From Xiphydria camelus (Eukaryota > Arthropoda > Insecta > Hymenoptera > Xiphydriidae): a stretch of DNA of 64,000 nt. Position 1 is the first letter of the stretch, and each line of letters opens with the position of its first letter. Below the pieces are notes generated by a model. That model saw only the letters and a list, made by a program, of their open reading frames with translations. It searched no databases and was not told the DNA's origin. Made by a program: the position numbers and the translations under genes. Location of the stretch: assembly GCA_963678675.1 (NCBI GenBank), contig OY783195.1, forward strand, positions 13,490,505 to 13,554,504. Direction: 5' to 3'. Of this stretch, positions 900 to 60,800 are shown in pieces.

Positions 900-902
900 A
901 GA

Positions 903-9756: not shown

Positions 9757-12700
9757 ACAGTCGGACACGATAGAAATTGTACGGCTTCTGCTGAAATCTT
9801 CTACAATTTTGTTTTGCGGCAGCTTCCTCAGACTTGTAATATAAAGATTTGAAGATACCAGCAGCCAATAAAATACATCTGTCATTGTTTTTTCTCTAGA
9901 GCATTTCCTCGAAAAATTTTTTCGATATCGTTTTATATCCTTGTTTCGGGGTTCCCGAGCTTCCTCAGAGTTGTCCAATTGGCAACAACGCCGAATCAAT
10001 AATTTGTGGGCCGTGAATGAGAACCTTATGCATAGAAGTTTTCATGTAATACCATGGATATTCTCGAGATGTTCGAGCTGTGTTGCCATCATTAGTACTC
10101 CCAAATCCGGGCTTTTTTGGACGATCGACAAGGAGTCCTAATTGCGATTGGAACCCTTTTTTGATCATTTTTTACGGTGGACTGTATTCTTCTTGTCATC
10201 CTCGATACGCGCTTGCCATTTTTAATACCCATTTTGTAAGACACGTGTAAAAGGCATTCAAATAAACGTATCCACAGATACAAAATCAACTTTCCAAACC
10301 GTAAATTTGCTTTGTTGATATTCAGATATATAGAAGTAAGTCTTAGTCAATATGATTGAATTCCTGTGACGTGACTCCACATAAATGGCAACGTTGCGTA
10401 GACTTTGTAGACAATACTGCATTGCACACTTTTCCGTCTATCATGATAAATACCGTTTCGTATTCTACCGATATTTCCTTTCCATTTATTACTATCGTAA
10501 AGGGCACAAGCGATGCAAACTGCCATTCAACACGTTCCTCTTCGATGACAGAGGATTCGACGTTTTCGCGTAGAAATTGCAGTTTTATTGGCTTATAAAA
10601 CCGAGGAGATGATTGTCTAAGATTTGTCCATATAATAATGTCTGTGAGCTTCACATTCATTAGAAGCAAGCTGCAAAAGTACGAGCGATGTCAAAAACAC
10701 ATTCACATGTGACATACTTTCATCGTTGAACCTCTGCTTGTACTTGCTCTGTCTAAACTTTCCGTCGAATCCCCATTTATAAATCAATCTAAATCAATTT
10801 TAGTTGTTCCACCTCTTCCTGCGCTAAGGTTTTAATGACTTCATTTTGAGTATACAGAATAGGTTCCATTGCATGATTCAATAAATCCTGTTAATCGACT
10901 TCTGCAATACTTTGTGTGAACTTCATGGATGAGCGAAATGGATAGCAACGCAATTTTGCTTCTGCTACTTTTCTGTAGAGTGGATATAATTTGCATTTAT
11001 TCTCCTCCATTGACTCCCTGATTACACAGTCACACAAAAAAAAGTGGGGTATACATTTGATGCAATATATGTTACCCGTAGTAATTTTGCCTCCTGATCA
11101 TGAATCCGGTGTCAAAATTTGGCCATCACGTCACATTTTTTTAAATCTCAAAAAACCATCAAGAGATCATGATTTTCAAAAAATTAATGGACTTAACCAA
11201 ATTCACTATAGGGGGTTTTTTGGGTCGCTGATCACGAATCTCAAGCCGGATCTCCAAAATTCAAGATGGCGGATCCAATATGGCGGACGTGATTTTTGAA
11301 TATCGATGGATTCATGCCGAATTTAGTACAAGGGGGTTTTTTGGGTCGCTGATCATGAATCTGAAGTCAGATTCTAAAAATTCAAGATGGCGGATCCAAT
11401 ATGGCGGACGATATTTTAGAAAATTTTGAATTTTTGTAAATATAACTTCATATTCGTTATTATATTATTCATATTTGGCATGAATCCGTTGATTTTGGAA
11501 AATCTCGTCCGCCATATTGGATCCGCCATCTTGAATTTTTGAAATCTGACTTCAGATTCGTGATCAGCGACCGAAAAAAACCTCCTATAATAAAGGACCC
11601 CGCACAAACCTTATGGGAATTTGGTTCCGATGGATTTGTCTGGGCTTCACATATGTTGTAGATCTTGACGTTCTGATCAAAAGTTATCAGTGCCGCAACA
11701 ACGAAAAATGAACAGTTTTTGAGTTTTGAAACCTAGTTCATACTTTTTGCTTTCCGTCATACGATCTATTGGATCGAGATAATCATGTAAAATCAGGGTT
11801 TCTGTGAATTTTGCTAAAAATCACGTATTTTTTAGTTGGTGAGCTAACGATTCAGGTATCACCCGGTCAGACAAAAAATAAGCAGTTCTGGGGGGGGGGA
11901 GAGACTTTAAAGTTACCGCTTTTTACTCGCAACCATACGCTCCTTTTCAGCCAATTCAAGCACGCATTCAAGATCATGTGCGATCTTGTGAGCACGTGTT
12001 TGTCTCCATATACTTATGCGCGAGTGTGTGCGTGCGCATAAATATTTATTTTTTAATGTCTGATTTTCTAATTTTTTCCGTGTATCTGCATTGTTTTATC
12101 GCACAAATCTTATGGAAACTGGTTCAGTACTGAAATCCTCGCGTACTTCACATATATTGTAGTTTATGACCTCCTGATCAGAAGTTAGCATTGCCATACA
12201 CTCAAAAAATGTACCAGAGCTAAAAGACTTTTAAGCAGTACACCTTTTACTTGCGACCGTACGCTCTGCTGTATTAAACTAGTTATACGGCTCTTAAATC
12301 CTGGTGAATATGTCTCACCTGCACGAATATTGCAGGTCATGATCAGCTTTTCAAATGTCACTGTTCCGACAAACGATGGTCGGAATTCTATAAATATCTA
12401 TTTATATAATTATAAGATTTGTGCGCTAAAATATTGCAGACACACGGAAAAAATTAGAAAATCAAACATTAAAAAATAAATATCTATGCCCACGCACACA
12501 TTTGCGCATAAGTATATGGAGGCAAACACGTACTCACAAGATCGCACATGATCTTGAATGCGTGCTTGAATTGGCTGAAGAAGATCGTATGGTTTCGAGT
12601 AAATATCGGCAGCTTTAAAGTCTCCCCCTCCCCCGCAGAACTGCTTATTTTTTGTCTGGCCGGGTGATACCTGAATCGTTAGCTCACCAACTACAAAATA

Positions 12701-13773
12701 CGTGATTTTTAGCAAATTCACAGAAAACCTGATTTTACATGATTATTTCGATCCAACGGAAAGCAAAAAGTATGTACTTTAAGGTCTCAAAACTCAAAAA
12801 CTGTCCATTTTTCGTTGTTGCGGCAATGATAACTTTTGATCAGAACGTCAAGATTTACAACATATGTGACGCACAGCCAAATCCACCGGGACCAAATTTC
12901 CATAAGGTTTGTGCGGGGTCCTTTGGCATGAATCCGTCAATTTTCGAAAATTTCGTCCGCCATATTGGATTCGCCATCTTGAGTTTTTGAAATCCGACTT
13001 CAGATTCGTGATCAGCGACCGAAAAAACCCCTCTATAACGAATTTGGTTTAAGTCCATTAACTTTTTGAAAATCATGATCTCTGGCTGGTTTTTTGAGAT
13101 TAAAAAAAATGTGACGTGATAGCCAAATTGCGATACCGGATTCGTAATCAGGAGGCAAAATTACTACGAATAACATATATCGCATCACAAGCATATATCC
13201 TACTTTTTTTTTTGTAACTGTGCATAATTTTTTGCGGTTAGAAAAAAATCGTGACGTGATGGCCAAATTTTGACACCGGATTCGTGATCAGGATACAAAA
13301 TTACTACGGATAATATATATCGCATCAAATGTATACCCCACTTTTTTTTTGTGTGACTATGTTATCTCACATTGAGGTTTTGTCATTTTTGCTTCCACCA
13401 TAATTGCGTCTTCGGATAACGGAGTTTCGATCTCCGATTCGAAAGGTTTCTTATATTTAAAGCCTCTTGTTGGATTTGTTGTCACATCTTTCACAACTAT
13501 GGCAGCGTCTAACTCTCCCGAAGAGTGCAAACTCATTTGAGTAGCATAACAACTCCGATGTATCATATGTTACATGCAATTCTTCAGTTTTTCGTCATTT
13601 ACTACGATCACTAGACGACATAAATAACACATCGATGGTCTACCATCTTTATTTTTCGATATCTCCAAGATGGTGGTGGTGGTGGTGGGTATCGGAAAAT
13701 GAACAAAACAATTTAGCCATTCTTTGTGTTGTCGAGAAAAAAAAAGTGTACGTTTCTTGAAGATGTTTGCCAC
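9757..13773 (-). pseudogene. Transib transposase gene (RAG1-like DDE core), broken
   Basis: On the minus strand an N-terminal region (13773-13365, with ATQMSLHSSGELDAA, then KPQCEI) joins ESMEENKCKLYPLY at 11015 once the fold-back is removed. The catalytic core follows. YKWGFDG (Asp codon 10764-10766) is the position of RAG1 Asp600. SSPRFYKPIKL matches the RAG1 pre-loop. MIDGKVCNAV (Asp codon 10436-10438), 16 residues before a Cys-x2-Cys zinc pair (CHLCG), matches RAG1 Asp708 and its ZnC2. LGLLVDRPKKPGFGSTNDG follows near 10,130. Then HKVLIHGPQIIDSALLPIGQ and SEEAREPRNKD (Glu near 9961-9966) match the RAG1 Glu962 region. The gene has several stops and at least two frameshifts (near 10,800 and 9,970), so it is inactive. 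Confidence 0.8.
11025..13361. mobile_element. Fold-back element with CACAG ends and TTA target duplication
   Basis: Almost the whole 2,337 bp is one inverted repeat. The left arm opens CACAGTCACACAAAAAA and the right arm, read on the minus strand, CATAGTCACACAAAAAA. Both continue GTGGGGTATACATTTGATGC, then a GAATCCGGTGTC/CCATCACGTCAC motif, then TTCAAGATGGCG(G/A)ATCC, and further to the centre near 12.3 kb. TTA flanks both sides (11022-11024 and 13362-13364). Removing the element plus one TTA restores the Transib transposase frame (CEI to RESMEENK), which fixes both ends. The two mirror-image reading frames (11811-12041 plus, 12410-12721 minus) lie in the arms; I see no known protein in them. 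Confidence 0.85.
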
Positions 13774-16362: not shown

Positions 16363-16477
16363 ATAGATTTTTAAGTTCCTGGAGGATCCAATATCGGTGA
16401 AAATACATCCAGTGAATATGATATTCCTTACACTACATTTTGTGCCCATAAAAAAATTCATATTGAATTCAACAAAA

Positions 16478-16694
16478 AACACAAAACGTGTGGCCGCCAC
16501 ACGCGGAAGAAGTGAAACTTCGATATCAGTTTCTCTGAATTTGATTCCGGTGGTATTAGTTTCAATTGGCTCTACGAAGAAGCATTGTAAAAGACTTGTA
16601 TAGAGCCAATTGAAACTAATACCACCGGAATCAAATTCAGAGAAACTGATATCGAAGTTTCACTTCTTCCGCGTGTGGCGGCCACACGTTTTGT
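16478..16694. mobile_element. Perfect hairpin MITE, copy 1
   Basis: An inverted repeat with arms of about 105 nt: AACACAAAACGTGTGGCCGC... on the left mirrors ...CCACACGTTTTGTGTT on the right, around a loop of about 20 nt near 16,575-16,595. I see no mismatch in the arms. A second copy lies at 58,669-58,885. The MITE splits the small frame at 16,144 from the zinc-finger frame that begins inside its right arm. Confidence 0.85.
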
Positions 16695-16878
16695 GTTATT
16701 GTTTATTTTTCCGGCAAAATCCCTGGATGAAAACGTCCAAGCCGTCATGGCAGGCACACGGAAATGTGTTACGATACAGAGGTTCTCACAAGGAACCCTA
16801 GTATCGGCGATTGGTCAGGGTGAACAAGCGGGCTCGCAATCGTCGTCATCATGCGACCGCAGCTTCGTAGAAGTAAGT

Positions 16879-18663
16879 CCCTTGGCTTCTACGGAGTATA
16901 AAGCTACAAGACACATTCATGATGATAAAAACAAGCCGGACAGCTTTTGTTATGTCTGCGGTTTGTTTACCCCTCCTAAAACCAGAAAAAAAATCAACGA
17001 TAAAGTTCAAGATGCATACGAATATTGTTTTGGATATAAAATTTCGAATCAAGATAAAGACTGGGTCCCTCACACTGTCTGTGCCAACTGCTACAGAATT
17101 TTAAAGACATGTCACAGTACGAAGAACCTTTCTAATTTGAAATTTTCATCACCAGTCGTATGGGGCATACCAGACAGAAGAGAAGATTGTTTCTTTTGTA
17201 TGACAGTTACAACGGGATATAATTCCAGAAACAGAAATCAAATCAAATATGTATACAGAAACAAAATGAATCCAGCCATTACTATTGAACAGAATAGTGG
17301 TCGTCGGAAGAAACTTTTAGAAGACCCAGCTATCGATGTACGTGAAGGAGGGTTTGATAAAGACAGTGACATGGAAGTGAGTGCAAGTGATCTGGAATCA
17401 AGTTCAAGTGATGAGGAATTCAAAAAAAGAAATGAAGCACCACAGAAATTTAGCCAAGCCAAATTGAGTGATTTAGGCAGAGAGCTGAGTCTATCAAAGG
17501 AAGCACGTGAGCTTTTGGCGTCTAGGTTGAAAGAGAAAAATCTCTTGGATATAAAGGCACTAAGATAACTGTATATAGAAATCATGAGAAAGAATTGAGA
17601 AAGTTCTTTATACAGGATAAGAAATTAGATTTAGTGTATTGTGACAATGTCACCGGACTAATTAATAGTTTGGAGACTGGAGTATATAAGCCAGAAGAGT
17701 GGCGTCTTTTCATAGACTTCTCAATCCGTAGTCTAAAAGCTATACTACTCCACAACACGAACATTCTAGCTCCGATACCTATAGCTCATTCAACAGCCTT
17801 GAAGGAATCTTATGATAACGTGAGTAGTTTTTGACAAAATAAAATACTCTGATCATAGCTGGCCTCTTTGTGATGATTTAAAAATGATAGGGATCGTTCT
17901 CGGGATGCAGAGCGGAAACATCAAATATCCCTGCTTTTTATGTCTCTTTGACAACAGAGATCAATCAAACTATAAAAAGAAAGAATGGCCAGAGCGCAAG
18001 TCTTTAGGACCCGGATCACCAAATGTTTTGAAATTGCCTCTTGTGGATGTATCAAAAATTTTAATTCCACCTTTACATCTCAAACTTGGCCTAATAGCTC
18101 AGTTCGTCAAAGATTTGGATAAGTCGGGCGAATGTTTTAAATATATTGCGAAGAAAATGCATACACTCTCTCTCAGTGACGCCAAATTAGAGGCAGGTAT
18201 TTTTGACGGCCCGAAAATTCGGCAACTATTTAACGATATCACTTTTACAGATCATATGACGAAAACGGAGCGAGCTGCATGGATAAGTTTTCGCGATGTA
18301 TGCCAGAATTTCCTTGGAAATAAGAAAAGTCCAAATTATAAGAAGCTGATGAGTGACATGATACAACAATTTCAAGTTCTAGGTTGCAATATGACTATCA
18401 AAATGCATTTCTTAGATTCATATATCGATTTTTTTCCGAAAAAACTAGGTGACTTCAGTGAAGAACATGGAGATAGGTGCCATCAAGACATGAAGGACAT
18501 GGAAAAACGATATCAAGGGACGTGGGGTGTCAATATGATGGCAGACTATTGCTGGAGTTTGAAACGAAATGTTGTGAAGGATAAGAAAAGTAATAAGCGA
18601 CGTTCACTCCGTCGATCGTTTGAAGACAAGCAAGTTAGGTATCACAAACGAAGTAAAGACTAA
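16879..18663 (+). pseudogene. Transposase-type gene of an uncharacterised multi-copy animal family
   Basis: Three frames join into one protein. The first (16,879-17,568) has two Cys-x2-Cys pairs (FCYVCGLFTPP and VCANCYRIL), then DCFFCMT, an acidic Ser-rich linker, and a coiled region. The second (17,595-17,834) has LDLVYCDNVTGL and EEWRLFIDFS. The third (17,840-18,663) has YPCFLCLFDNRDQ, PPLHLKLGL, FDGPKIRQL, FLGNKKSPNY, IKMHFLDSYID, a His/Asp block (GDRCHQDMKDMEKRYQG) and NMMADYCWSLKR, then a basic tail. Frameshifts near 17,575 and 17,832 break it. I recognise the family only as abundant unannotated genes in arthropods and cnidarians. The acidic residues and copy number suggest a transposase. 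A second fragment lies at 32,087-32,482. Confidence 0.7.
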
Positions 18664-19099: not shown

Positions 19100-19917
19100 A
19101 ATAATTATTGCTGGATTTGACCTTGAAATGAACTTGACCCTGACATACTGGAGGCAAACGAACTTCGGATTCTAACTGTTGAGAAAATTGTATTTTCCCG
19201 CGTGTGTTGGACTCGACACAGGTAGCAGCACCGTACGGTGGCCGCGACTAGCGCGATATCTTTCTTTGCTGCGGCCAACTACGGCAACTATCCTTAGTTC
19301 GTTACTTGCACTTCCGTTTTCCGGCTGCTCTCGAATGTCGACATCGTGCTGATCTCTTTCGGTTGCACTCTGTATCACCTGACATCGTGTTATGTAAAGG
19401 GTTAAATAAACTATACATAACCAGAAATCAACACGAACTCAGTGACCTCGAAAACATATTGACGTAGTAGTTTATTCCCGTGAAGACACATTTTCTTATT
19501 TTTGCAATTGTCATATGAACCTTCCATACAATAACATGAAGTGACCTTGAAATGACCTTGGGGGTTATGTTATCAAAAAAATTAAATACGTATCTAGACG
19601 TAAAATTTCCCGTTCTTTCAGAATCTGCAGTCAAACATTCATGTTTGGCAGAATACATTTGACCTTGAAATGACCTTGAATCTGACCTTGTCGGATCAAA
19701 CGGACATCGGATTTGGATTCAGCGACTTCAAAAATATATAGGGATAATAATTTGAATCGATTTGGCTATTTTTCCAGGATTTGACCTTGAAATGACCTTG
19801 AACGTGACGTGATGGAGACAAACGGACACCGGATTCGGATTCAGCGACCCCAAAAACATAAAGATATACTGGTCTGGTCAGAGGAAGCATTTTTTCGATT
19901 TTTTTTGTAGAGCTGTG
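19100..19917 (-). repeat. AGGTCA-rich region ending in a CACAG-type terminal repeat
   Basis: TGACCTTGAAATGACCTTGA recurs around 19,540, 19,660 and 19,782, a direct repeat of the half-site AGGTCA with 5-bp spacing on the minus strand. The outermost 230 bp, read on the minus strand from 19,917, begins CACAGCTCTACAAAAAAAAT, then GCTTCCTCTGACC, GTCGCTGAATCCGAATCC and TCCATCACGTCACG. This terminal sequence recurs at both ends of 57,106-60,746. It could be the right end of the element carrying the gene at 16.9-18.7 kb. I did not find a matching left end upstream. Confidence 0.55.
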
Positions 19918-20696
19918 TAGTTCTCGAGACATTGCATTTTGTACATAAATACGCGCCGTAGTGCTCGCGCGTTCTTATAAACAAATGCCTCTAACTTCAA
20001 TAAAAATTGGTATTTTTCGATGATTTTTGTTTTGTTTTAAAGGTAATGAAATATTGCAATCATCAGAAACAAAAACTTGTCAATTTTTTCGGTTTTACGC
20101 AAGAGCATCAAAAATGCATTTACACGTTTTAATAGCGAAAACGCATTTTTTTGTAGAAAATTCAATGTACTCCTTTTTTAAATGCTCACTTGATATAAAC
20201 ATAATTTTCAAAATTATTAGTTTACCAAAATAATTGAGTATTGCTTCGTTTCGGAGTCGAGAAGCTCGAGTTTAGCGTTTCCCGCAGGTGCGACAAGGAT
20301 AACGCGACGTGAGTTCATGCGTCAGAGAGAGATAATCTCGATCTCGTATAGAATGAAATCGTTGAAAATAGCAATTAAACCTCGGTTTTTTTTATAACTT
20401 TTACTAATTTTAGTTATAATACTAATCAAACAGAAAAATTATGTTCAAGTTGGACACAAAACGTGACAGATGAAACAAAAATTGATGGAAGATTTAATAA
20501 TTTATTTTACTATTTTTTAAAGAATTAAGACTATGAAATTACAAGAGGTTATTAAAACTAACTAAAACGTATTAAAAGTAATGAATTTTGTCTGTCGTGC
20601 TAAACCACATGTTAGTGGACGGCGGCAGTTTTTCCCGTCGGTCTGGACTGACGGGTAAGTTTGACAGTTTGATCTGGCGAGTGGCGCGCCCACTAA
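19918..20696. other. Intergenic, no recognised feature
   Basis: AT-rich to 20,590, then a short GC-rich stretch (20,615-20,695, with CGTCGGTCTGGACTGACGGG, a small inverted repeat) directly before the palindromic element. No gene recognised. Confidence 0.45.
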
Positions 20697-23401: not shown

Positions 23402-23404
23402 TAA

Positions 23405-24457
23405 CTGAAAGGTAAAACTGCTGGTTTGAACCGCGCCGTTCCAAACCGACAGTTCGAACTCTGTGTGTATGGGCCCCTATTGATGCAATTTAAGTTCTCG
23501 CGAGATCTGTAAAGACTCGTCATTACTTTCTGATATCAATACTTCCCGAAATAAAACTGTTTGTGACAGTTGATTGTTTTCTACATACAATATTTTGTAA
23601 GGTTTTTCTAACTCCAACTTTCATGCGGATATTTTGATGACGATTTTTAATTCGACACGATATTTGAGAAATAAATTTTTCAAAGAGTCCCACACAGCTC
23701 TCGAGATATATTTTAATATTTTCAATGTATCTTAGGGTATTGCATTACAACACTTTCTTATTAAACTAATAATAAACGTTATTCATGAATTGCTTACCCT
23801 AACAGCATAGGTTATGCCTTCCTTCGTCACTAAGTGATCGGGATGTAGCCACCCTCTCGCTGGTTTGTTAATGAAACTACCACCTCCACTGGTAGCCATT
23901 TCTAGAAGACATACATATATTAAAATCCCTTTTATAATAGCAGATTTATATGTTAATATTTATATTATAACTAAAGCAACAATTAAATGATGTATAACGT
24001 GTATCAAATGTATTGTAGGAATTGTATACCACGTTGGAAAATGTCAATCAATCGCGCCTCCAATTAACGACACGGTCTTCTTCAAGAGTAGACACTGTCG
24101 GAGAAAAAACTGTCGTTTATATACGTACAAAGAGGAAAAAAGGCAAGAAAGCTTAACAAACTGGTACAAATTTACTGGCGAAAAAAATACGGCGAGGCGT
24201 CTTCGTCATATGGACCCAATGATTCAAGTGAGGAGTTCCATTGCATCGATAATTCGAACGGTATTAAGGTAGTACCCCCACAAGATCGTTGAATTAAGAA
24301 ATGGTTGAAATTTGACAGATGTTATTTAATGCATTATCCAAACATCTGTGTAATTTAAATAAATTTGACCACCCCAAACCTGAGATATTTACACTTCAAG
24401 AGTTGGCTTGATTTACACGTAACAAATATGTTATGATGGGCAAAACAGTACATCATT
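23405..24457. other. Intergenic region ending in a diverged gene-fragment copy
   Basis: No gene recognised from 23,405 to 24,185. On the minus strand from about 24,310 to 24,190 lies a sequence homologous to the interrupted frame at 26,428-33,167: YYLNTVRIIDAMELLT, then ESLGPYDEDAS after a 1-bp insertion. It has an undisturbed CTACCTTAATACCGTTCG...AATTATCGATGCAA, that is, without either insertion found in the other copy. Confidence 0.55.
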
Positions 24458-28395: not shown

Positions 28396-29332
28396 CGAGG
28401 GGGGACCCAAAAGAAACGGGAATTTGGTCATAACTTCTTTATTTCTTAATATTTTTACACGAAATTTGTATCACCTTCAAAGTATTCTCCCTTGACCACA
28501 ACGCACCTCTGCAAATGATCCTTCCATTGTTCAAAACATTTTTAAATTCACTTATCGGGATGTTCTTTAGGCCTTCCAGCGATTTTTGTTTTACCTCCTC
28601 CGCAGTGGCAAAACTGCTGCTGCTGCTGCTTTGTTTTGGGGTCGTATGCATAACACCACGATTCATCACCAGTAATCACCTTGGAAAAAAATTCAGGGTC
28701 CTCATTGAGCTGATTTTGAAGCTCAAAACATGCCTGAAGTCGACGCTCCCTTTGCTCGCCTGTGAGAAGGCGAGGGACAAATTTGGCTGCAACTCTTCTC
28801 ATGTGCAAATCTTTGGATAAAATCCTCTGAATGGAACTCCATGATATTCCAGACATCTCACAGAGTTGATCAATGGTTCGGCGACGGTCTTCACGAATGA
28901 GAGCATTGATTTTGTCGACGTTTTCGTCACTTCTTGACGTTGAGGGGCGTCCTGAACGGGGTTGGTCTTCAATTGACATTACTCCATTTTTAAAACGTGC
29001 AAACCACTCGTAGACTCTAGTTTTACTTAGGGCAGCATCCCCATAAGCAGTCTTAAGCATTACAATAGTTTCCGCGGCCGATTTCCCCAACAGGAAATAA
29101 AATTTCACAGCCGCGCGTTGCTCTCGACAATCGGCTATCACGTTTTCGGCGAAATGGAAAAAGTTGTTTCACTAAAAAAATTCCCACGGACGAACCGGTG
29201 CACTCACAGCGACAGAACTTCGCACACTAACTCAGGAGACGTGTCCCTGACGGACACCTGTTCGAACAATGAGTTTCCCCACTCTCCCTCCCCGCCGCAG
29301 CCCAATTCCCGATACTTTTGGGTCCCCCCTCG
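28396..29332 (-). mobile_element. Mariner element, 937 bp, internally deleted
   Basis: Terminal repeats CGAGGGGGGACCCAAAAG at both ends, inverted, each flanked by TA (28,394-28,395 and 29,333-29,334). Intact mariners are about 1.3 kb; this copy lacks roughly 350 bp of the transposase gene. The ends are well conserved, so it could have been mobilised in trans. Confidence 0.9.
28470..29141 (-). pseudogene. Mariner transposase, catalytic middle deleted
   Basis: From ATG 29,141 the N-terminal helix-turn-helix region is complete (REQRAAVKFYFLLGKSAAET, SKTRVYEWFARFKNG, EDQPRSGRPSTS, SWSSIQRILSKDL) up to the first catalytic Asp in VITGDESWCYAYDPKTKQ near 28,660. Then a CAG-rich run (28,617-28,634) fuses directly to the C-terminus, and the second and third catalytic Asp with the HDNA block are missing. 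A 1-bp shift near 28,545 leads into FEQWKDHLQRCVVVKGEYFE. It cannot catalyse transposition but may still bind ends. Confidence 0.85.
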
Positions 29333-31491: not shown

Positions 31492-32086
31492 CCATATACA
31501 CTCCGTTGCAGAACTTACACGCCAACGTACATAGCTGGTTCCATATCAGTAGACGCACCTAGTTCATTACGTTTCTTGTAATTTCATGGTTCTACCGACA
31601 GCTAAGATCAGAACCAAAATAATCAAACCGAGAATGAAATAGCTGATGCTCTTCGCTTAGTTCGACCCTTTTGGTTCTTACCTGAGCTATCAGTATTACC
31701 ATAAAATTACAGGAAATCGCAGTGGACGGGATGCGCCTACTAATAGAGAACCAGCTATGCTGGCATGTAAGTTCTGTAATGGAGTGTATCCTATTCTATA
31801 CATCTATTATTCCAAATTGTTTCTTTGAAAAGAATAAAGGCTCTACCAATGAAAGCTCAATTCATGGTACTTGGCAATCGTGACTTAATACCGTTCGAAT
31901 TACACAGGTTTACAAAAAAAAAAAAAAAGTCCGGTCTATTTGACCGGACCATAGTATTTCGAGGTATTTTTGCGTCCTGAATCCGATCCCGAGGTCATCT
32001 GAGCCCTATCACGTCAGAAAAACGAGATTTCAAGGTCATTTAGAGGTTAAAATGACCATTTTTTTGGAACTGGACCCGGGACAATG

Positions 32087-32482
32087 ACGGTGGATGAGGA
32101 AGAAGCATGGAAGAGCTTCGTGAATGTTTCTCAGAAATTTCTTGGAAATAAAAAAGACCCAAACTATAGGGAATTGGTGGAGGGCTTGCTCCGGAACTAC
32201 AAAGCCATTGGATGTTTAATGAGCTTGAAGGTCCATTTCTTGGATTCACATTTGGACAATTTCCCAGAAAATCTTGGACATTATAGCGAAGAACAAGGTG
32301 AAAGATTTCACCAAGACATAAAAGAGATGGCAAGATGCTACCAAGGTTTCTGGGACATCAACATGTTGGCAGACTACTGCTGGAACTTGAAGAGGGATAC
32401 GAACAAGGGGCATAAGAGAAAGGCACTTAGAAGGAGTTTTGAGCAAACCTGCAGACTCCATAAAAATGCGCGGAAAGATTGA
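32087..32482 (+). pseudogene. C-terminal fragment of the transposase-type family (second copy)
   Basis: The frame runs from just inside the left terminal repeat (DEEEAWKSFVNVSQKFLGNK) to a stop at 32,480-32,482. It matches the last 130 residues of the gene at 16.9-18.7 kb: FLGNKK, NY, GC-x-MSLKVHFLDSHLDNFP, SEEQGERFHQDIKEM, YQGFWDINMLADYCWNLKRD and a basic tail, around half of the residues identical by eye. The His/Asp motif and ADYCW are intact. The first ATG (32,084) is only an accident of the deletion junction. Confidence 0.75.
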
Positions 32483-32504
32483 AAAATTGGGAGGGAGAAA
32501 AGTG

Positions 32505-32600
32505 AGAGGCAAGGGGACTCACTGTAAACAAGCACCCCGAAGGGAACAGAATCTGCAACGTCCACGTCGTTGTTGCTGGGTGATGCTAATAGCAGAGTTC
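32505..32600 (+). other. Conserved downstream block, second copy
   Basis: GTGAGAGGCAAGGGGACTCA, AGCACCCCGAAGGGAACAGA, ACGTCCACGTCG and GGGTGATGCTAA follow the stop codon by about 25 bp and line up with 18,744-18,845 downstream of the first gene copy. The remaining 230 bp to the right terminal repeat show nothing else recognised. Confidence 0.6.
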
Positions 32601-33356
32601 AGTTTAATAGCAGTGCTGGGTTCACTGTCAATATCTCACAGTGAATGGATCATCGAAATTGGATGCCTTGACAGGGAGATCGAAACCCACGAGATACAAC
32701 GATCATAGCAACATTTTATCCACTGGGGTGGTTCTGTGATAGTCCCGGTCGAGATTTAGGACTCCATTCCAATGTTTGGAAGGTATTCAAGACCTAAACA
32801 GCTACCCTCTCCAACTCAACAGGTCGCTTGAGAAATTATCCCGGGTCCAGTTCCAAAAAATGGTCATTTTAACCTCTAAATGACCTTGAAATCTCGTTTT
32901 TCTGACGTGATGGGGCTCAGATGACCTCGGGATCGGATTCAGGATGCAAAAATACCTCGGAATACCATGGTCCGGTCAAATAGTCCGGACTTTTTTTTTT
33001 TTTTGTAAACCTGTGTTATCGATGCAACGGAACTCCTCACTGAATCATTGGGCCCATATGACGAAGACGTAACATTACCAGCAACTATTCGCGAAGTCAA
33101 TACAGTAGAAATCTGCGCCTATGAAACTGGATTAATAAGTATGAACTTTGATTTTACAAGTTTTTAAATGCAAATTTAAGTCACACTCAATTTTTTTATT
33201 ATAACTGAATTTCATTTAATGGTTACTGGATATATTAAAATCCAATTTGAGAAAACTTTTGCGGAGAACTATACGTTCGACAGTGCAGCTATCGTTGACA
33301 ACAATTTCAAATTAAGAATCCAAGTGACCGACTTCAAGGAGGATCCCAAACTTTAA

Positions 33357-36697: not shown

Positions 36698-37660
36698 TTG
36701 GAAGCCAGGAAAAAAGCAAGAGATAAGGCGAGTGGATCAGTAGGAGGACGAAGCCAGGGGAGAGGAGTGAAAATCAGGAGAAGTTTGGAGGTTAGGAGAG
36801 ACGTCGAGATGAGGACAAACATGAGCGTTACCAGCAGATCAAGTAGGCAGCAGGATTACCGACCGGAGGCAAACAGCAGTAAGGAAGAAGGACAGAGGGA
36901 GGAGAGGAAAATGAGAGGCAGACCACCGGGCGGGAAGCAGAGCCAAACGGGGGATAAAAAGGTAAGTGCGGTAATAACAAACTTTTTGAATAAAGGAGAA
37001 GTACAGGAAACGCGAAATGAAGCAGAAGAGAGGCAGGCGACTCTGGAACAAGGATCGAGGCCAAGAGGAGACGATAGAATAATGGAGAAATTGGAAAGCT
37101 TATTAGCGGAGGTACTACTACTGAGGAAAGAAAATGCAGAATTTAAGGGACAGCTGCTGTACATGAAGAAAGAATCGGAAGAAAAGGAAAAAAGATGGCG
37201 AGAAGAGAGGGCGGAGCTAGAAAGGAGAATCTGGAACCTCGAATATAATAAGCAAGAGTTGCAGGAAAGAGCGAAGAGAAAGAAACTGATAGTCATTAAG
37301 GGTTGGAAGGCAGAGGGGGAGAGGGGGGGGGGGAGAGTCCGAGAGTTTCAGTGGAAACATTTTTGATGGAGGAAATTGGAGTGGAACAGAGGGTGTTGTC
37401 GGCCGAGGAAAGAGGCAGTGGAGATTCTAAAATGATCGTTGCCGAGTTGGAGGATTGGAAAAGTTAGATGGAGGTGATGGTAAGGAAGAAGAATTTAGGC
37501 AAAAGAAGAATCTTCATAGTTTATGACCTTACTTGGACGGAGCGCGATATTCAAAGAAGAATAAGGTACATTGCGAAGAAAGCGAAGGATAACGGGGCGG
37601 GAAGTCAAGATTGGCTACATGAGTTTGTGGATCGACGGGACTGGCTGGCGCTGGAATGAA
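36698..37660 (+). pseudogene. LINE copy B ORF1 protein
   Basis: The frame from ATG 36,698 encodes a basic, Arg/Ser-rich N-terminus (to about residue 110), then a Glu/Lys-rich coiled coil (ENAEFKGQLLYMKKESEEKE..., about residues 130-190), then KLIVIKGWKAEGE. A run of ten G at 37,322-37,331 shifts the frame. The rest (EERGSGDSKMIVAELEDWKS, a TAG at 37,466, then LGKRRIFIVYDLTWTERDIQ) continues to about 37,660. Likely role: coiled-coil RNA-binding ORF1p of the LINE particle. The G-run shift is the main lesion. Confidence 0.7.
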
Positions 37661-37764
37661 AGAGAAGGAAGATTGGAAGAGGATACTTTTTTAGGAAGGA
37701 AGGGCATGGAAGAAAGACAGGAACATGGCGTCGGAGAGGAAAAGGGGAGAAGACGGAACTGAGC

Positions 37765-38486
37765 ACCTTTAAATCATGTTTTTGGAACGTGGCAGGAGCG
37801 ACGGGGAAGGATTTGGAGTTTTGGAATTTCGTGCAAAATTTTGATTTTATAGGGTGGTGGAGACGTGGGTGGAGGAGAAAACATGGAAAATGGTGGAGAG
37901 GAGGCTACCAAAGGGGTACAGATGGAAGTGCAACTTCGCAGTCAGAGAAGGCAGAAGAGGAAGAGTGAAAGGAGGAATAATAACGGGAGTAAGGAAACAG
38001 TATGAGGAGCAGGAGGTAGGGAGGGAAGACTTCGACACGCTCCAGGAAAGGACAATAAAGGTGGAGGGAGAACAGTGGAAAATGTTGACAGTATATAGCG
38101 GGGACTTCAGCAAGACAAGGAGGGAGTTGGAGGAGGCGGTAGGAGAGACAGAAGAAAGCAAGCTATTAATCGGACGGGATTTGAACGGAAGAACAGGAGA
38201 GGAAGGTGGGATTTGTTGGAATGGAGAAGATTCGCGAAGAAAATCGAGGGACAAGACAATGAACAGGGCGGGACAAGGACTTCTGGAGTTGGTGAGAGAG
38301 AAAGGTTGGAATATTTTAAACGGAAACGTAGAAGGCGATAGGGAAGGGAACTGGACATTCGTAGGAGAGTGTGGCGCGTCGGTGATCAATTGCACGATAG
38401 TCAACGTGGAGGCGAGAGACGACATTACAAGGATGGATGTGAGAGAGAGGATGGAATCGGACCACATGCCGCTAACGGTTGAGTAG
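37765..38486 (+). pseudogene. LINE copy B APE-type endonuclease
   Basis: NVAGATGKDLEFWNFVQNFD starts in one frame near 37,788. After a 1-bp shift near 37,848, VETWVEEKTWKMVERRLPKG leads into the long frame to 38,486. Motifs: KGGIITGVR, LLIGRDLNGRTGEEGG (catalytic block, with RDLN for the usual GDFN) and MESDHMPLTVE with the SDH triad. Near full length for the domain. The Gly-to-Arg change before Asp-Leu-Asn in the metal-binding block would weaken catalysis. Confidence 0.75.
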
Positions 38487-38587
38487 AAGACAAGGATGCA
38501 GGGGACAGGGAGAAACATTGAGGAACGAGTAAGCCACAAGACGATACGGGATTGAACGACGGAAGGTAGAGAGACATTTTACAGAAC

Positions 38588-40648
38588 GTGGAAAATCTGG
38601 CCTTCGGGCAAGAGGATCCAGGAGAATTGATGAGAGAAATAAAGGAAAAAATAGAAGAGGTAGTGGTCAAGAGAGAAGAGAGAAGAAGGCAGTGGAAACC
38701 AGGAAGGAACAATTGGTTTGACAACGACTGCAGAAAGAAAAAGAAAAAAGTAAAACACGCATTAAGGGCGTTAAGAAGAACGAGGAGGAAAGAAGAACGA
38801 GGAGGAAAGAAGACGAAGACAGAGCCAGAGAAGGGTACATACGAGAGAAAAGAGAATATAAACAGCTAATAAAGACGAAAAAAGAAGAGAAGAAGAAGGA
38901 AGAGGAGGAGAAGATCAAGAATTTGAAAAAAGAAGAGGACACTTGGAAGTATATCAACAAGGAACGAAAAAGAAGGGAGGGGATAAGTGAAGAGATCGAC
39001 CTTAAGATGTGGGAAAAGCACTTCATGAACTTGTTGGAAGGCTCGAAGGAAAAGAGATCGGTAGAATACGAAGCAGAGGGGGGAGAAGGGGCCACAGAGG
39101 AAGTTAGCTACGAAGAAATGGAGAAACAGATCAAAAAACTGAAGAAAGGCAAGGCGGCGGAAGCGGATGGGCTTGAAAACGAACTTGGGAAGTACGGCCC
39201 TCCAGTGGTCAAGGAAGTGTTGTTAAGGCTGATAAACAAAGTTTGGAGAGGAGAAGGGATGCCGGATGGATGGAGGGAAGGCGTTATCTATCCCATATTT
39301 AAAAAAGATGACAGGGACAAGGCAGGAAACTACAGGGAGTTACACTTCTTAGCACGGCGTACACGGTATATAGGTATATGCAATGATTTTGGAGGAGAGA
39401 CTGAAAAAGGAACTAGAAGGGCGGAAATTGCTACCGGAGATGCAAGCAGGTTTTAGAGCCGGAAGAAGCACGATGGATAATATATATATTTTGAACTACA
39501 TGGCGAACCGGGAACTGAAGAATAAGGGAGGTAAACTGTACACGTTTTATGCGGACTTCACAGCGGCCTTTGACAACGTCGACAGACAACTTCTGGGTGA
39601 GACATTGAGGAAGACTGAAATAAGCGTAAACCTAAGAGGAAGGATTATGGAAATTTATAAAGAAACTAGATCATCAGTGAGGGTGAGCGGAGGGGCGACC
39701 GGAATATTTTACACGGGGAAAGGAGTCAAGCAGGGATGCCCATTGAGTTCAACCCTGTTCGTATTGTACGTGGCAGATTTGGAAGACTGATTTAACCGCT
39801 TAATGCGCTCACCCGAGTTAACTCGGGCAAGCGCACCGTTTCAGGTTCCGCTAACCCGAGTTAACTCGGGCAACAGAATATCTTGCCTATCTAGCGTGCG
39901 CCGACCTGTATTAACTTGTCCAAACTAGATGCAGCGGCAATGCTGAATCTGTAGATGCAAACAAGGCAATGCGGAATCTGTAGCAGGGTTCGTGATGCCC
40001 GCGGAAAGAAGATTCGAAGAGAGACTAGATATTACTGTCTCGATTGTGAAGTGCAATTATGTGTCACATCCTGTTTTCGAGTATACCATACTATAGCCAA
40101 TATTTAGTTCAATATCTTTACCTTACTTGTATCAGTTAATAATTTTTCGTTGTTTTTTTAATATTTTGAAGTCTACCTTATTTTAGGCTGAATTTTGAAA
40201 GATTTTCTTTCTGCCCGAGATAACTCGGGTAAGCACATGGGCGAAAATAAAGTTGTTTTTTGCAAAAAAATAGTTTTCCTGAATTTCTTTATAGGTTTTT
40301 AAAAGGACTCTACGAATACATCCGACAGATAAAATAAAATAAACCGAACATTTTTGACCATCTTTTGCGAGTAAATTAGCGCGTTAAGCGGTTAAGGGAA
40401 AAAAATGGGGAGGAGTGGGGATACGGAAGAAGAAGATTTGGTCACTGGCATATGCGGACGACGTGGCATTGATCGCGAAGGACGCAGAAGGATTAAGAGA
40501 AATGATGAGGAGCTTCACAAGGTACCTGGAGGAAAAGAAACTAAGCCTGAACACAAGCAAGTCCAAGGTGATGGTCTTCAAAAGAGAAAGAGGGAAGAGA
40601 AAGAAAGATATATGGCAATGGCAGAAGGGGGAAATAGAAGAAGTTAAT
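38588..40648 (+). pseudogene. LINE copy B linker and reverse transcriptase, split by a TTAA MITE
   Basis: The linker (38,588-38,869) and RT fingers (38,923 on: KGKAAEADGLENELGKYG, VWRGEGMPDGWREGVIYPIF) change frame near 38,880 and 39,345. The palm then reads MQAGFRAGRSTMDNIYILNY, TFYADFTAAFDNVDR (first catalytic Asp), VKQGCPLSSTLFVLYVADLE, a TGA at 39,788-39,790, then the MITE. After removing it the same frame continues FKGKKWGGVGIRKKK to LAYADDVALIAKDAEGL (Asp-Asp at about 40,457-40,462) and SKSKVMVFKRERG. Sequence is lost at 40,648. Confidence 0.8.
39796..40391. mobile_element. TTAA-flanked MITE (piggyBac-like), 596 bp
   Basis: TTAA at 39,792-39,795 and 40,392-40,395. Inverted ends CCGCTTAATGCGCT and CCGCTTAACGCGCT. 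The palindrome CCCGAGTTAACTCGGG occurs at 39,812 and 39,857, and CCCGAGATAACTCGGG at 40,204. Removing it with one TTAA keeps the LINE frame, which fixes the boundaries. No coding capacity. Confidence 0.85.
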
Positions 40649-40650
40649 AC

Positions 40651-42458
40651 GTGGTTCAATTACGTTTATTTCGTATTCAATATTTCATTTCAGGGATGTA
40701 TAGACACTTATGGGGACCAGAAGCGACGACGTAATGGTAATTGCGGGGACCGAGTCATAAATGTGCAAAATATCTAACAAAACAGCAATAATCGTATGAA
40801 CAAAGCCAACAAATAAAATAAAATGGCCGGTAGAAATGGTCAGTTTACAAAACTGCAAATTATATTTCATTAAAATTATCAAAATTTTCGACGTATTGGT
40901 ACCTACCAGGACCAACTTCCGGGATGTAACGGGACTTACCGGGACCGCATATTTTAATTTTCAGTTTCTTTGGACAAATCTTAAAAGTTTATTAGTAAAT
41001 TAGAAATTGAGTTGGTTACAATTGCAATCAAGCACCGAACATAGACTAGATAAGAAAGGTTACTCTGTGCGTCAGTATTTTGAAGTTGGGACTACAGAGG
41101 CGAGCCGCGTTGCTGGACGCCACATGTTCGGTGTCGACGTTTACGGTATTTCGTGAGTGACTACACCGGGTGGCGAGTAGAAACGAATTTTGAAGTATCG
41201 ATAGAATTTAATTATTTATTAAACTGTTCAATCGAATTTTACTTTAGTTAAATCTGGTTTATAAATTTTTTCGTACATACGAGTATACTCAGGATTATAA
41301 TATAATCTTCCTTGAATACTATGTAATTGCCCCTTAAATGAATAAATTAGTTAAATTATTGTTTGCAATAATCCATATTCTTAATAAAGTTTCAAATTCA
41401 GCAATAAACAAATTTTAAAAGTACGAACAATCTCTTACAAACTAATTGTTAAGTTAACCGGTTAAACCACCGGTATATCCGATCGCCAATGCTCCCGCGC
41501 GATATGTACGACACCCCGTATAAGAGTTCCGCCACCGCACGCGCCGAAAATCTCCCAAGAAAGAGTGGCGACAGAAAGTGAGCGAGATAGGCAACACTGG
41601 AAGCGTGGCTTCCCTTCCAGTCTTTAGACAACATTGTGTCGGTTTTTTTTGAAACCCGTGACTCGAACCTGAGCTCTTTAGCATATGAGATGTTTCGAGA
41701 CTGCAGCTTTCGCATTGTACCAATTTCGAGCTATGTCAATTATAAGCTAAAACCGGCCATTATACAATGCAACACTGAGATATCTCGGCAAAAATATTTA
41801 AATTAAATATTTATTAAAATAAAATGGCCGGTAGAAATGGTCAGTTTACTAAACTGCAAATTATATTTCATTAAAATTATCCAAATTTTCGACGTATTGG
41901 TACCTACGAGGACCAACTTCCGGGACGTAACGGGACTTACCGGGACCGCATATTTTAATTTTCAGTTTCTTTGGACAAATCTTAAAAGTTTATTAGTAAA
42001 TTACAAATTGAATTGGTTAAAATTGCAATCAAGTCGGGCTGCAATTTAAACCTTTAAGCAAAATTCAGTTGATTGACAGCATTTTCCATGTTTTAATTTT
42101 CTCCAGCAGACGTTACGATCACTGTGTTGGAGTTGGCATTAATTTGGCCAAATATTCCGTTATTTCCCAATACCGCTCAGATGATTGAAATCTATGATGC
42201 AATCGTTTGGCTACCTGTACATTCTTAATATGTGGTTGAATTACGTTTATTTCGTATTCAATATTTCATTTCAGGGATGTATAGACACTTATGAGGACCA
42301 GAAGCGACGACGTAATGGTAATTGCGGGGACCGAGTTATAAATGTGCAAAATATCTAACAAAACAGAAATAATCGTTTGAACAAAGCCAACAAATAAAAT
42401 AAAATGGCCGGTAGAAATGGTCAGTTTACAAAACTCCAAATAATATTTCATTAAAATT
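40651..42458. repeat. Three copies of one noncoding repeat with (AAAT)-(AATGGCCGG) core
   Basis: The block ACGTTTATTTCGTATTCAAT ... CAGGGATGTATAGACACTTA ... AATGGCCGGTAGAAATGGTC ... CGTATTGGTACCTAC(C/G)AGGA ... GGGACTTACCGGGACCGCAT appears complete at 40,651-41,010. Its 3' part appears at 41,815-42,036 and its 5' part at 42,230-42,458. The first copy truncates LINE copy B. Copies are about 97% alike by eye. Between them, 41,030-41,640 holds no recognised feature. Non-coding; type unassigned. Confidence 0.7.
41651..41735 (-). repeat. tRNA-derived SINE head
   Basis: On the minus strand a TAGCTCGAAATTGGTA A-box-like stretch is followed 50 nt later by a GGTTCGAGTC B box, then a (T/A)-rich tail. 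There is no convincing acceptor-stem pairing, so this is a tRNA-derived SINE or pseudogene rather than a functional tRNA. A near copy stands at 42,475-42,560 with the same downstream AATGCAACACTGA segment. Confidence 0.55.
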
Positions 42459-55233: not shown

Positions 55234-55559
55234 TTAAGAACCTGTTTCAAACCTCAAGTGTGCTCTTATATCTATCTATATATATAACACTACCTAGTTG
55301 CAATTTTTGGCGTAAATGATTCTTGTTAGTTCTCCATCTTGGCGTAAATTTTTGTAATAATTTATTAAAACTGAACAAAACTAATTCTACAATAAGTTAT
55401 AAACCTGTTCCAAATCTCGCACTTTTTTTTATAAATACTTGTACTTTTAGCGTAATTTTACCATAGTTATAGTTTTTCCGCGTACTTGATTGTAGTTCTT
55501 TGACAGTTAATCCCACCGTATAGAGTCACTCTTCCCGGAAAAATGGGAAGAGTGATCTC

Positions 55560-56878: not shown

Positions 56879-57524
56879 TTAAGTAGTAAGAAAAAAATCT
56901 CAACCATTCATTGGTTGATGCTTGAAGTTTAACGCTCTGCGCATCCAGGGTGAGGAAGCCCTTACTATTCACGCCTCTTAATACGAGCTCCATTAAAAAT
57001 ATAAGGTTCCGGGCTGCAACATAACAAATATAACGTAAACGAATTTGTGGAAGTATAGACAATGAGCGCTATTGCTGATTGGTCGTGGAGGATAGGAGAG
57101 GATAACACAGCTCCACAAAAAAATCGAAAAAATGCTTCCTCTGACGAGACCAGTATACCTTTATGTTTTTGGGGTCGCTGAATCCGAATCCGGTGTCCGT
57201 TTGTCTCCATCACGTCACATTTTTGAAGTGAAACTTCTTTGCTGAGGGGACTAAAAGCGTGGTATGCAACGAAAATTCCTCAAAAACCGTAACGAAACCC
57301 ACACACTCCAGCGCTACCGTATGTGCCTCACTCATACACCGATCTCGACTCTGCCCCATTCCACTTAGGCCCTTTGCACACAACGCTACGCAGGTATCCG
57401 ATACTCGACGAGTATACACACACCACGCGACGCGACTTTCGTCGGTGATGCTATATATTATACTCCCGCGACCGGCATGCTCAAGTGGCCGATGCTCGCG
57501 TCGCCGAGACTGTTCCGTCGCACA

Positions 57525-57992
57525 ATTATGTTTTCTTTTATTTTACAACGATCTATTTTGTTGTTTGGCAATATGTTTATATGTACTCGAAAGAGCTCTT
57601 TCTGCTCTACAAAACTGTTATAATTGTTATTTCGAATAATTAAATTTTTAATTATTTTTCTGGCTTAGAGATGGAATATCCAGGGGTCAAAAATCAGCAG
57701 TTTCGACATCTGCTTTTCTTTGCTTTTCATCGAGGTCAAAAAACTGCCGTATACGGAGAAGGTGTTATAGGCCAGTCTTTGATAAAAAAGATGTCGAAAA
57801 TTCTGATTTTTTCCTCCTGAATATTCCATTTCTAAGCCTAAAAAATAATAAAAAATTGTTATTCGAATAAACAATTATAATAGTTTTGTAGAGCAGGAAG
57901 AGCTCTTTCGAATGAATATAAACACTTTCCGGGACAACAAACAAATCGTTGTAAAATGAAAAAAAAATAAAAGAAAACGCGACGAACTTATT
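57525..57992. repeat. Palindrome, arms of about 160 bp, replacing the middle of a repeat
   Basis: TTTTCTTTTATTTTACAACG, GAAAGAGCTCTTTCTGCTCT, ACAAAACTGTTATAATTGTT and GGCTTAGAGATGGAATAT at 57,530-57,680 mirror 57,822-57,990. The unique centre 57,690-57,810 includes a TCGACATCTG/AGATGTCGAAA pair. No protein. Confidence 0.65.
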
Positions 57993-58091
57993 TTCCAACC
58001 CAATAGCATCGCGATCATAAATACTTCGTCAAACTAGGGTTCATCTCGCCATCAGCGAAGCAGTACATTTCGGCGAATCCAGGCTGCTAAT

Positions 58092-58290
58092 GAGTTCGCA
58101 GTCCCGCACCTTTCCTGAAAGGGTTAATTACTGGACGAATCGAAATGAACCTTTGCTGAAATATTCGGTTATCTATTGAAATCGTCATTTCGAATGCATT
58201 CGAAATATAGCGGTATCTGCGAGAAGTGGTTCATTACAATTCGTTCGGTAATTAGCCTTCCGGGAAAGGTGCAGGACTGCGAATACATAA
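58092..58290. mobile_element. MITE-like inverted repeat
   Basis: GTTCGCAGTCCCGCACCTTT, CCTGAAAGGGTTAATTAC and GACGAATCG at the left mirror CGAATTCGT-type sequence, GGTAATTAGCCTTCCGGGAA and AGGTGCAGGACTGCGAAT at the right, arms about 45 bp. A central ATTTCGAATGCATTCGAAAT is itself palindromic. Confidence 0.6.
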
Positions 58291-58668
58291 GCAGTCCTCG
58301 TTTGCCGAAACGTACCACCCGAACTGCGTGCACTATAATGTGCACTATAATAGAATTTGTAATGTATGTGAAATTCTGAGAAACAGCGATTAATGTTTTA
58401 TCACTGTCAAATTTGGAAGTAAAACTCCTGGATTCCGTTTATGATTTTCTATAAATTCGTCAGTTTAGTGAATACTTCGTTCGTTCGATCAAAGTTACTT
58501 CGTATACTGAGAAAAGAGTTTATTTCCAATTAATAAGTGTATACTTGATTATGGCGGAAAAAATATTTTGTTAAACCAAGTAAGTAAATATACTGGGTGA
58601 TTCTTTAATATTGCGAAAAACTTCAAGGATGGGTTCCTTGGATGAAAATAAGAAGAAAAAAAACAAAC

Positions 58669-58885
58669 AAAACGTGTGGCCGCCACACGCGGAAGAAGTG
58701 AAACTTCGATACCAGTTTCTCTGAATTTGATTCCGGTGGTATTAGTTTCAATTGGCTCTACGAAGAAGCATTGTAGAAGACTTGTATAGAGCCAATTGAA
58801 ATTAATACCATCGGAATCAAATTCAGAGAAACTGGTATCGAAGTTTCACTTCTTCCGCGTGTGGCGGCCACACGTTTAGTTTGTT
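58669..58885. mobile_element. Perfect hairpin MITE, copy 2
   Basis: Same element as 16,478-16,694: AACGTGTGGCCGCCACACGC ... and its mirror, with arms of about 105 nt. It differs from copy 1 at few sites, one of which is changed in both arms so that pairing is kept (GATACC/GGTATC here, GATATC/GATATC there). Two further right-arm changes (AAATTAAT, CCATCGG) are not compensated. Confidence 0.85.
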
Positions 58886-58890
58886 TTTAA

Positions 58891-59850
58891 CCTTCCTTAG
58901 TCACTCATTTCGACTATACACAGAGGTTGTGTTTGAGTCAAAAATGACCCACATATATAACAACACATTCGTTACTATTTATTGCTCCATTTTTTAATAC
59001 ACTTTGGTATTGATTACTTACTTCTAAATACTGGATACGTATTTAAATAAAAAAATATTGCTTTTCGAATATTAACGTACATAAAATTATTTTTTCTTAG
59101 AAAGCTTACATCTAACTAGTGATGATTTTGTCCTGTAATATGCTACAGAAAAACCATTATGAGCACCTCAAGCACATATGTATTTGCACTAGATGACCCT
59201 TACAAATAAATTTTTGGCAACGGTGATATTTGTAAAAAGATTTGTTGTCAGTTTTCTCGCATAAGTAGCAACGACCTCTTTTCTTCGCGCCTATAGACTG
59301 AGATGTAGAAGAAAAAGGTACCACTTCAGATTTAATTTTCAAGTTTAAAAGTTTTGACAAACTAAAAATGCACCCTGCTGCGTGAATGTTCATTGAATAA
59401 CTGATAGGATAATCGAAGAAAGAAGGAGGCGTCAAAGTCAAGCGCGAACAAGTTCGGATCTGCGAGCTGCTGTGAGCAGCAGCTCTGCAACGAACAACAT
59501 TGTTGCTGCTATGTAACTCACGCGAGTACTTTATTTTGGTCGTCCTATATACATATGTATAATAATAAGCACATTATGATACGTTATTTAGTCTTATCAG
59601 TCTAAACACGGGATGTGAGAAAATCGCCGCATAAAAGCATTGGGTCATTTTTGACCCAAATAACCTCCGTGTAACTATTTTTATCGTAAGTACTCCTGAT
59701 CGATTTTTCAAAAATTAAAATCACCAGAACTTCTCTATAGACTATACAAATAAAGTCACTAACCCATAAGTATGTATCATGTGCGGTCTTAGTGTTATTA
59801 ACAAAATTAATATGGTACGGGTCAGAAATGACCCGAGCAACTTAGGAAGG
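58891..59850 (-). mobile_element. piggyBac-type element, 960 bp remnant
   Basis: TTAA flanks both ends (58,887-58,890; 59,851-59,854). Inverted ends CCTTCCTTAGTCACTC and CCTTCCTAAGTTGCTC. The palindrome GGGTCATTTTTGACCC (59,643), with variants GAGTCAAAAATGACCC (58,933) and GGGTCAGAAATGACCC (59,819), lies just inside the ends. It carries the 3' end of the transposase gene only. Confidence 0.85.
59157..59441 (-). pseudogene. piggyBac transposase C-terminal cysteine-rich domain
   Basis: Minus frame: after a variable linker, KKRGRCYLCEKTDNKSFYKY, HRCQKFICKGHLVQIHMCLRC-stop at 59,159. The spacing C-x2-C...H-x-C...C...H...C-x2-C is the C-terminal RING/PHD-like zinc domain with which piggyBac transposases bind their terminal repeats. 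All cysteines appear present. The catalytic DDD core has been deleted (upstream frames are noncoding). Confidence 0.8.
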
Positions 59851-59854
59851 TTAA

Positions 59855-60502
59855 TCTCAAAAAACCATCAATAGATCATGATTTTCAAAAAGTTAATGGA
59901 CTTAAACCAAATTCGCTATAGGGGTTTTTTTTGGGTCGCTGATCACGAATCTGAAATCGGATTTCAAAAATTCAAGATGGCGGATCCAATATGGCGAACG
60001 AAATTTTTGAAAATCGACGGATTCTTGCCGAATTTGGTATAAGGGTTTTTTTTGGGTCGCTGATCATGAATCTGAAGTCAGATTTAAAAAATTCAAGATG
60101 GCGGATCCAATATGGAGGACGAGATTTTCGAAAATCGACGGATTCATGCCAAATTTGGTATAGGGGAGTTTTTTCGATCGCTGATGACGAATATGAAGTT
60201 ATATTTACAAAAATTCAAAATTTTCGAAAATCTCGTTCTCCATATTGGATCCGCCATCTTGAATTTTTTAAATCTGACTTCAGATTCATGATCAGCGACC
60301 CAAAAAACCCCCTTATACCAAATTCGGCATGAATCCGTCGATTTTCAAAAATTTCGTTCGCCATATTGGATCCGCCATCTTGAATTTTTGAAATCCGATT
60401 TCAGATTCGTGATCAGAGACCCAAAAAAAACCCTATAGCGAATTTGGTTTAAGTCCATTAACTTTTTGAAAATCATGATCTATTGATGGTTTTTTGAGAT
60501 TA
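59855..60502. repeat. Inverted GATGGCGGATCC repeat
   Basis: Arms of about 300 bp (59,856-60,163; 60,198-60,502) mirror each other and each holds two tandem units of GGTCGCTGATCA(C/T)GAATCTGA, TTCAAGATGGCGGATCCAAT and ATGG(C/A)G(A/G)AC. The same unit occurs at 11,220-11,410, 11,500-11,580, 12,945-13,030 and, diverged, 9,500-9,720. AGATGGCGG also matches the core of the YY1/Pho-type motif (GCCATCTTG on the other strand). Confidence 0.75.
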
Positions 60503-60800
60503 AAAAAAATGTGATGTGATGGAGACAAACGGACACCGGATTCGGATTCAGGGACCTCAAAAATATATAGGAATAATAATTTGAATCAATTTGACTATTT
60601 TTCCAGGATTTGACCTTGAAATGACCTTGAACGTGACGTGATGGAGACAAACGGACACCGGATTCGGATTCAGCGACCCCAAAAACATAAAGATATACTG
60701 GTCTGTTCAGAGGAAGCATTTTTTCGATTTTTTTTGTGGAGCTGTGTAAACAGGACTGGCACCTATCGGAAATGAAACACTTTAATCAGGTAGGTACACC

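Follow-up and report, generated by a model that had tools for sequence, protein, structure and literature searches.

CACAG-ended elements of Xiphydria camelus: probable Chapaev3 transposons with a transposase of predicted RAG1-like fold

Elements, ends and transposase in the window

The DNA analysed here, namely a 64-kb stretch of contig OY783195.1 from the hymenopteran Xiphydria camelus (the window, always taken at its full length), contains three complete elements with similar ends and a broken gene for a protein that one of these elements also carries in part. An initial annotation, made from the sequence alone, had linked the ends to the protein and knew the combination as no named superfamily. 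Our analysis indicates that these are very probably Chapaev3 (CMC/CMCT group) cut-and-paste DNA transposons: the copy at 16.7-19.9 kb bears the transposase gene in broken form, and the three complete elements are non-autonomous derivatives.

The element at 31903..33015 (+ strand) is non-autonomous and 1,113 bp long, with terminal inverted repeats of about 183 bp and TTA duplications at 31900-31902 and 33016-33018. Two others lie on the same strand, at 11025..13361 (2,337 bp; TTA at 11022-11024 and 13362-13364) and 57106..60746 (3,641 bp; TAA at 57103-57105 and 60747-60749). With a slash marking each boundary of the element, the flanks read ATTA/CACAG...CTATG/TTAT at 11 kb, ATTA/CACAG...CTGTG/TTAT at 31.9 kb and ATAA/CACAG...CTGTG/TAAA at 57 kb; the duplications are thus as first annotated. 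The inverted repeats are much longer than the CACAG motif: the 31.9-kb element has 175 identical columns out of 183 and the 57-kb element 112 out of 117, and the repeat of the 11-kb element is 90% identical over 139 columns, a count that includes flank bases.

All six matches to CACAGN{4,6}ACAAAA in the window lie at named ends, against 0.19 expected in the window from shuffled sequence, and none of 100 shuffles reached six. The annotated CACAG ends with their four- to six-base spacing are therefore borne out, except that only the left end of the 11-kb element reads CACAG; its right end reads CATAG and is duplicated (13222, 13361). The other exception is TACAG in one genomic copy (L007). The ends also have subterminal motifs in common, as had been noted. 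ATCACGTCA occurs eight times in the window against 0.43 expected, always at base 101-106 of an end: at 19805..19813 (- strand), belonging to a lone end at 19917, and at start positions 11125, 13112, 13252, 32008, 32903, 57209 and 60634. GAATCCG stands at base 75-80 in eight of eight ends, counting the extra end at 13222 and the lone end; 7.4 copies are expected in the window by chance, so that only its position counts. With one end taken per subfamily (three subfamilies), alignments of bases 31-150 outscored 1000 of 1000 Markov-shuffled controls in all three comparisons.

Further in than these sites, TCAAGGTCA, which we take to be a nuclear-receptor half-site of the FTZ-F1/ERR type, has 10 of its 12 window copies inside elements (19118-19801, 32030, 32881, 60611, 60622), with three pairs spaced 11 bases; these repeats may be further recognition sites or host-factor sites. 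All seven window copies of CAAGATGGCGG, presumably resembling a YY1/Pho site, lie within the 11-kb and 57-kb elements (11262-11523, 59973-60372).

The two flanks of the 31.9-kb element, when joined in silico across one TTA, match a paralogous empty site of this insertion at 24198..24268 (- strand), in which the flanks are joined with a single TTA (95.8% identity over 71 columns). Because this site has one TTA and lacks the element, the TTA duplication was produced by the insertion. No empty site for the 11-kb or 57-kb element was found within the window.

The transposase gene, near full length with two frame breaks, was mapped by tblastn to 16747..18660 (+ strand), in pieces at 16747-17547, 17532-17822 and 17824-18660. 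The query was a full-length relative of 643 amino acids (P0147), and the start of the gene was mapped with another (P0124). An N-terminal zinc domain with three CxxC pairs occupies 16912..17301 (+ strand), and the 3' terminal end of the element lies at 19902..19917 (- strand). The terminal repeat of this end is that of the 57-kb element (112/117 identical). As annotated, the 31.9-kb element holds the C-terminus of the same protein, at 32075..32473 (+ strand; tblastn, 54-67% identity to four relatives), including H(4)H and the SEEQGER stretch, which probably carries the last catalytic acid. In the 11-kb and 57-kb elements, tblastn found no transposase piece. Two copies, about 230 bp long and 96% identical to each other, of a palindromic repeat lie at 16474-16709 and 58656-58887, the former occupying the position of the missing 5' part of the transposase element.

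Database searches returned 283 relatives of the protein in a first round and 2345 in a second; the best 120 of each were listed, giving 229 proteins overall. C(2)C is present in 213 of these, LH in 217 and H(4)H in 217; in the broken window copy, Y replaces the second H of H(4)H. Among the relatives listed, named sources include ants, a wasp, moths, a beetle, flies, crustaceans, a tunicate, a frog and a nematode. An alignment of 69 sequences, two of them window pieces, has D327, D381, C400, C403, L448-H449, H557 and H562 conserved in at least 90% of members, along with E575, E576 and E579 of the SEEQGER stretch. Pfam and NCBIfam searches named no transposase. Pattern searches matched 20 stretches in viral contigs and 44 in genome contigs, none of which was confirmed as a relative. 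Members of a longer subfamily (P0124, P0136, P0139, P0142, P0147, P0150 and others) have a similar N-terminal peptide, roughly MQG..PVSAAGQGE.AGPQASSS, which is of low confidence in the structure model of P0147.

Genomic copies and sister families

The 357-Mb assembly to which the window belongs contains at least 141 matches to the transposase, of which the best 30 were taken as loci, one of them being the window copy. Downstream of the protein, 14 of the 29 other loci of this subfamily have the same terminal repeat as the window has at 19917; TWA follows this 3' end in all 14, and a further T in 13. Ten of the 14 were extended in the 5' direction, and four proved to have both ends; these lie 3.8-4.6 kb apart, enclose the protein and are flanked by equal duplications. 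The protein travels within the element, and small derivatives such as the 31.9-kb element have the same ends. The check proposed in the initial annotation, extension of genomic copies of the protein to their termini, thus gave CAC[A/T]G ends and TWA duplications around it. Together with the predicted DDE recombinase fold described below, this strongly supports the protein as the transposase of the CACAG-ended family, as had been suggested.

Two sister families, with 55% and 51% identity to the window protein over the part searched, were sampled at ten places each (L031-L040 and L041-L050). Identity to L031 is 99.58-99.75% among copies of the first family, and identity to L041 is 99.83-100% among those of the second (nine comparisons each). 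Both ends are present in eight of ten and ten of ten copies, respectively. The first family has the structure ATWA/CACAGGGGAAC...GTTCCCCAGTG/TWAT, with 2,391-2,392 bp, and the second ATWA/CACTGGTCAAC...GATCAGTG/TWAT, with 2,317-2,318 bp. Counted by eye, open frames without stops number at least 28 rows of 576 amino acids in the first and at least 15 rows of 587 in the second; in three of three copies examined per family, an ATG-started frame of 565 and 559 amino acids, respectively, contains all motifs. Because the copies are so uniform, both sister families appear to have transposed in this genome very recently. The transposase at L031 is 97% identical over 408 residues to an annotated protein (P0032) of the beetle Aromia moschata, and horizontal transfer of the first sister family is possible.

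Across the 25 copies with both ends (eight and ten from the sister families, four from the genomic loci of the window subfamily, and three from the window), the left and right duplications are equal in every case, 17 being TTA and eight TAA. Random re-pairing of the duplications never gave 25 equal pairs in 100000 trials, with a mean of 14.1. The base before the duplication is A in 25 of 25 copies and the base after it T in 23, the exceptions being A at the 57-kb element of the window and C, in place of the last T, at L050. Since TTA and TAA covary on the two sides, they are part of the target rather than of the element.

Assignment to Chapaev3 and rival explanations

According to PMC4079192, Chapaev elements have CAC and GTG termini and transposases with C(2)C, LH and H(4)H motifs, and all Chapaev3 elements examined there have TWA duplications between A and T, verified with empty sites. 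These published marks, namely the CAC and GTG termini, the TWA duplication, insertion between A and T, and C(2)C, LH and H(4)H, are found here with few exceptions. The family is therefore filed as Chapaev3, the earlier view that no named superfamily has this combination falls, and a new superfamily is rejected.

The predicted catalytic core of the transposase superposes on the cores of RAG1 and Transib (HzTransib) over about 360-370 residues, which is the DDE recombinase fold for which the initial annotation had proposed to look. This predicted fold fits the CMCT clade, in which Chapaev is joined with EnSpm, Mirage, Transib and RAG1 (PMC12730594). Kinship to the RAG1/Transib core rests on the predicted fold. 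A search for viral fold matches gave none at E <= 0.001, an absence that says nothing about the fold. If the RAG1-like DDE core acts as in RAG1 and HzTransib, it would pair the two element ends, excise the element leaving hairpins on the flanking DNA, and insert the element at A^TWA^T with cuts staggered by 3 bp; gap repair would then yield the TWA duplication. End recognition is the probable role of the N-terminal zinc domain and of the subterminal GAATCCG and ATCACGTCA sites; to judge from their position, the sites at 75-80 and 101-106 are probably recognised by the transposase.

Several observations weigh against the assignment to Chapaev3 and the RAG1-like reading of its transposase. The further end annotated at 19,917 is confirmed as an end, but the expected TWA flank is not, as the 3' end of the window transposase copy is followed by TAG. 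A search of 13.3-16.8 kb for the 5' end of this 16.7-kb copy found none. Elsewhere in the genome, 15 of the 29 other subfamily loci have no such intact 3' end within the DNA extracted, and the 5' end was unrecognised in six of the ten extended copies. The sequence profile of the family matches neither a RAG1 nor a Transib core in the PDB at E <= 10. Furthermore, named Chapaev3 families were compared by published description, and EnSpm elements likewise have CAC...GTG ends and 3-bp duplications, together with C(2)C and H(3-4)H in their transposases (PMC12730594). What separates Chapaev3 from EnSpm here is thus the TWA target with its flanking A and T, along with LH, H(4)H and the N-terminal domain.

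These last two points leave some room for a separate CMCT lineage with the same ends and target, whether an unnamed sister of Chapaev3 or an EnSpm of animals. We consider this improbable, given that C(2)C, LH and H(4)H are all present and that insertion of TWA between A and T, reported for every Chapaev3 element examined in PMC4079192, is seen here. Pfam transposase models matched none of the 69 aligned members at E <= 0.01, which separates the family from EnSpm/CACTA elements, as does the target; this negative is weak, because a distant EnSpm could be missed too. The Pfam model for CACTA, Transposase_21, is among the models without a match. PIF/Harbinger elements also duplicate TWA, and a Harbinger with unusual ends would account for the target; the CAC[A/T]G ends, unlike the GG... 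ends of Harbinger as the initial annotation had pointed out, rule this out, and the RAG1/Transib-like fold with C(2)C and H(4)H also speaks against it, so that the idea carries almost no weight. Equally little can be said for chance, i.e., for A-rich ends and TWA flanks that merely resemble insertions. TWACACAG alone is no evidence for the family, as seven occurrences in the window compare with 3.4 expected, but chance is refuted by the empty site and by near-identical copies at 20 places, 18 of which have both ends and equal duplications; the long inverted repeats also speak against it. Transib, which makes 5-bp duplications, was ruled out by the 3-bp duplication length. Chapaev3 thus remains much the most probable assignment.

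Elsewhere in the window, an inverted repeat at 20696-23402 has arms of about 1,067 bp that are 99.25% identical, with a spacer of 574 bp. By eye, open reading frames at 1-3200 and 36700-40800 resemble pieces of non-LTR (long terminal repeat) retrotransposon endonuclease and reverse transcriptase, and those at 28548-29168, 55524-55925 and 63018-63554 resemble pieces of mariner-type transposase.

Zinc domain, significance and comparison with known systems

According to PMC4411706, Chapaev3 has a complex zinc finger known as the Chapa domain, and the N-terminus of RAG1 includes this domain as well. The zinc domain of the window transposase (16912-17301) resembles both the RAG1 N-terminus and the ZAD (zf-AD) domains of insect zinc-finger factors. 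The N-terminal zinc region of RAG1 is its best profile match in the PDB (E 0.015), and RAG1_imp_bd is matched by 4 of 24 pieces. With ZAD, the window piece falls under the Pfam cut-off (24.4 vs 28 bits); profile-profile comparison is weak (E 0.015, probability 3%), yet above 100 of 100 column shuffles. The transposase domain has a third CxxC pair, unlike ZAD. Matches to FYVE zinc fingers likewise occur in 3 of 24 pieces, at a best E of 9.6e-4, so part of the ZAD signal may be common to zinc fingers. Among the papers listed in our literature searches, as judged from titles and the beginnings of abstracts, none connects ZAD with RAG1 or with a transposase, and a further listing contains none combining ZAD, RAG1 and zinc finger. 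That the Chapaev3 zinc domain, the RAG1 N-terminus and insect ZAD form one domain family is a tentative proposal, which we hold to be rather doubtful; if true, it would bear on the origin of the insect ZAD factors.

This kind of element is already known; what is new is the anatomy of these subfamilies, the signs of recent mobility, the prediction of a RAG1-like structure and the lead on the zinc domain. A previously unexplained protein and its ends are now identified as Chapaev3, with a transposase related to RAG1 by predicted fold, and the indications are that it has been mobile very recently in its own genome. The uniform sister families are good candidates for a test of Chapaev3 transposase activity and for comparison of its chemistry with that of RAG1.

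Compared with RAG1 and Transib, the transposase has a similar predicted core at 10-15% identity in fold alignments. The Chapaev3 families Merrow, Garfield and Conan have the same CAC...GTG ends and the same TWA between A and T as these elements, and their transposases also contain C(2)C, LH and H(4)H (PMC4079192). Garfield_BM, with 2,289 bp and a 556-amino-acid transposase in the same source, is close in size to the two sister families, and the wide distribution in animals is likewise Chapaev3-like. The differences are that the Garfield and Merrow transposases described there have two exons, whereas the sister families have a single open frame, and that the window subfamily is longer (3.8-4.6 kb in four copies), with a longer N-terminus, as in the 643-amino-acid P0147.
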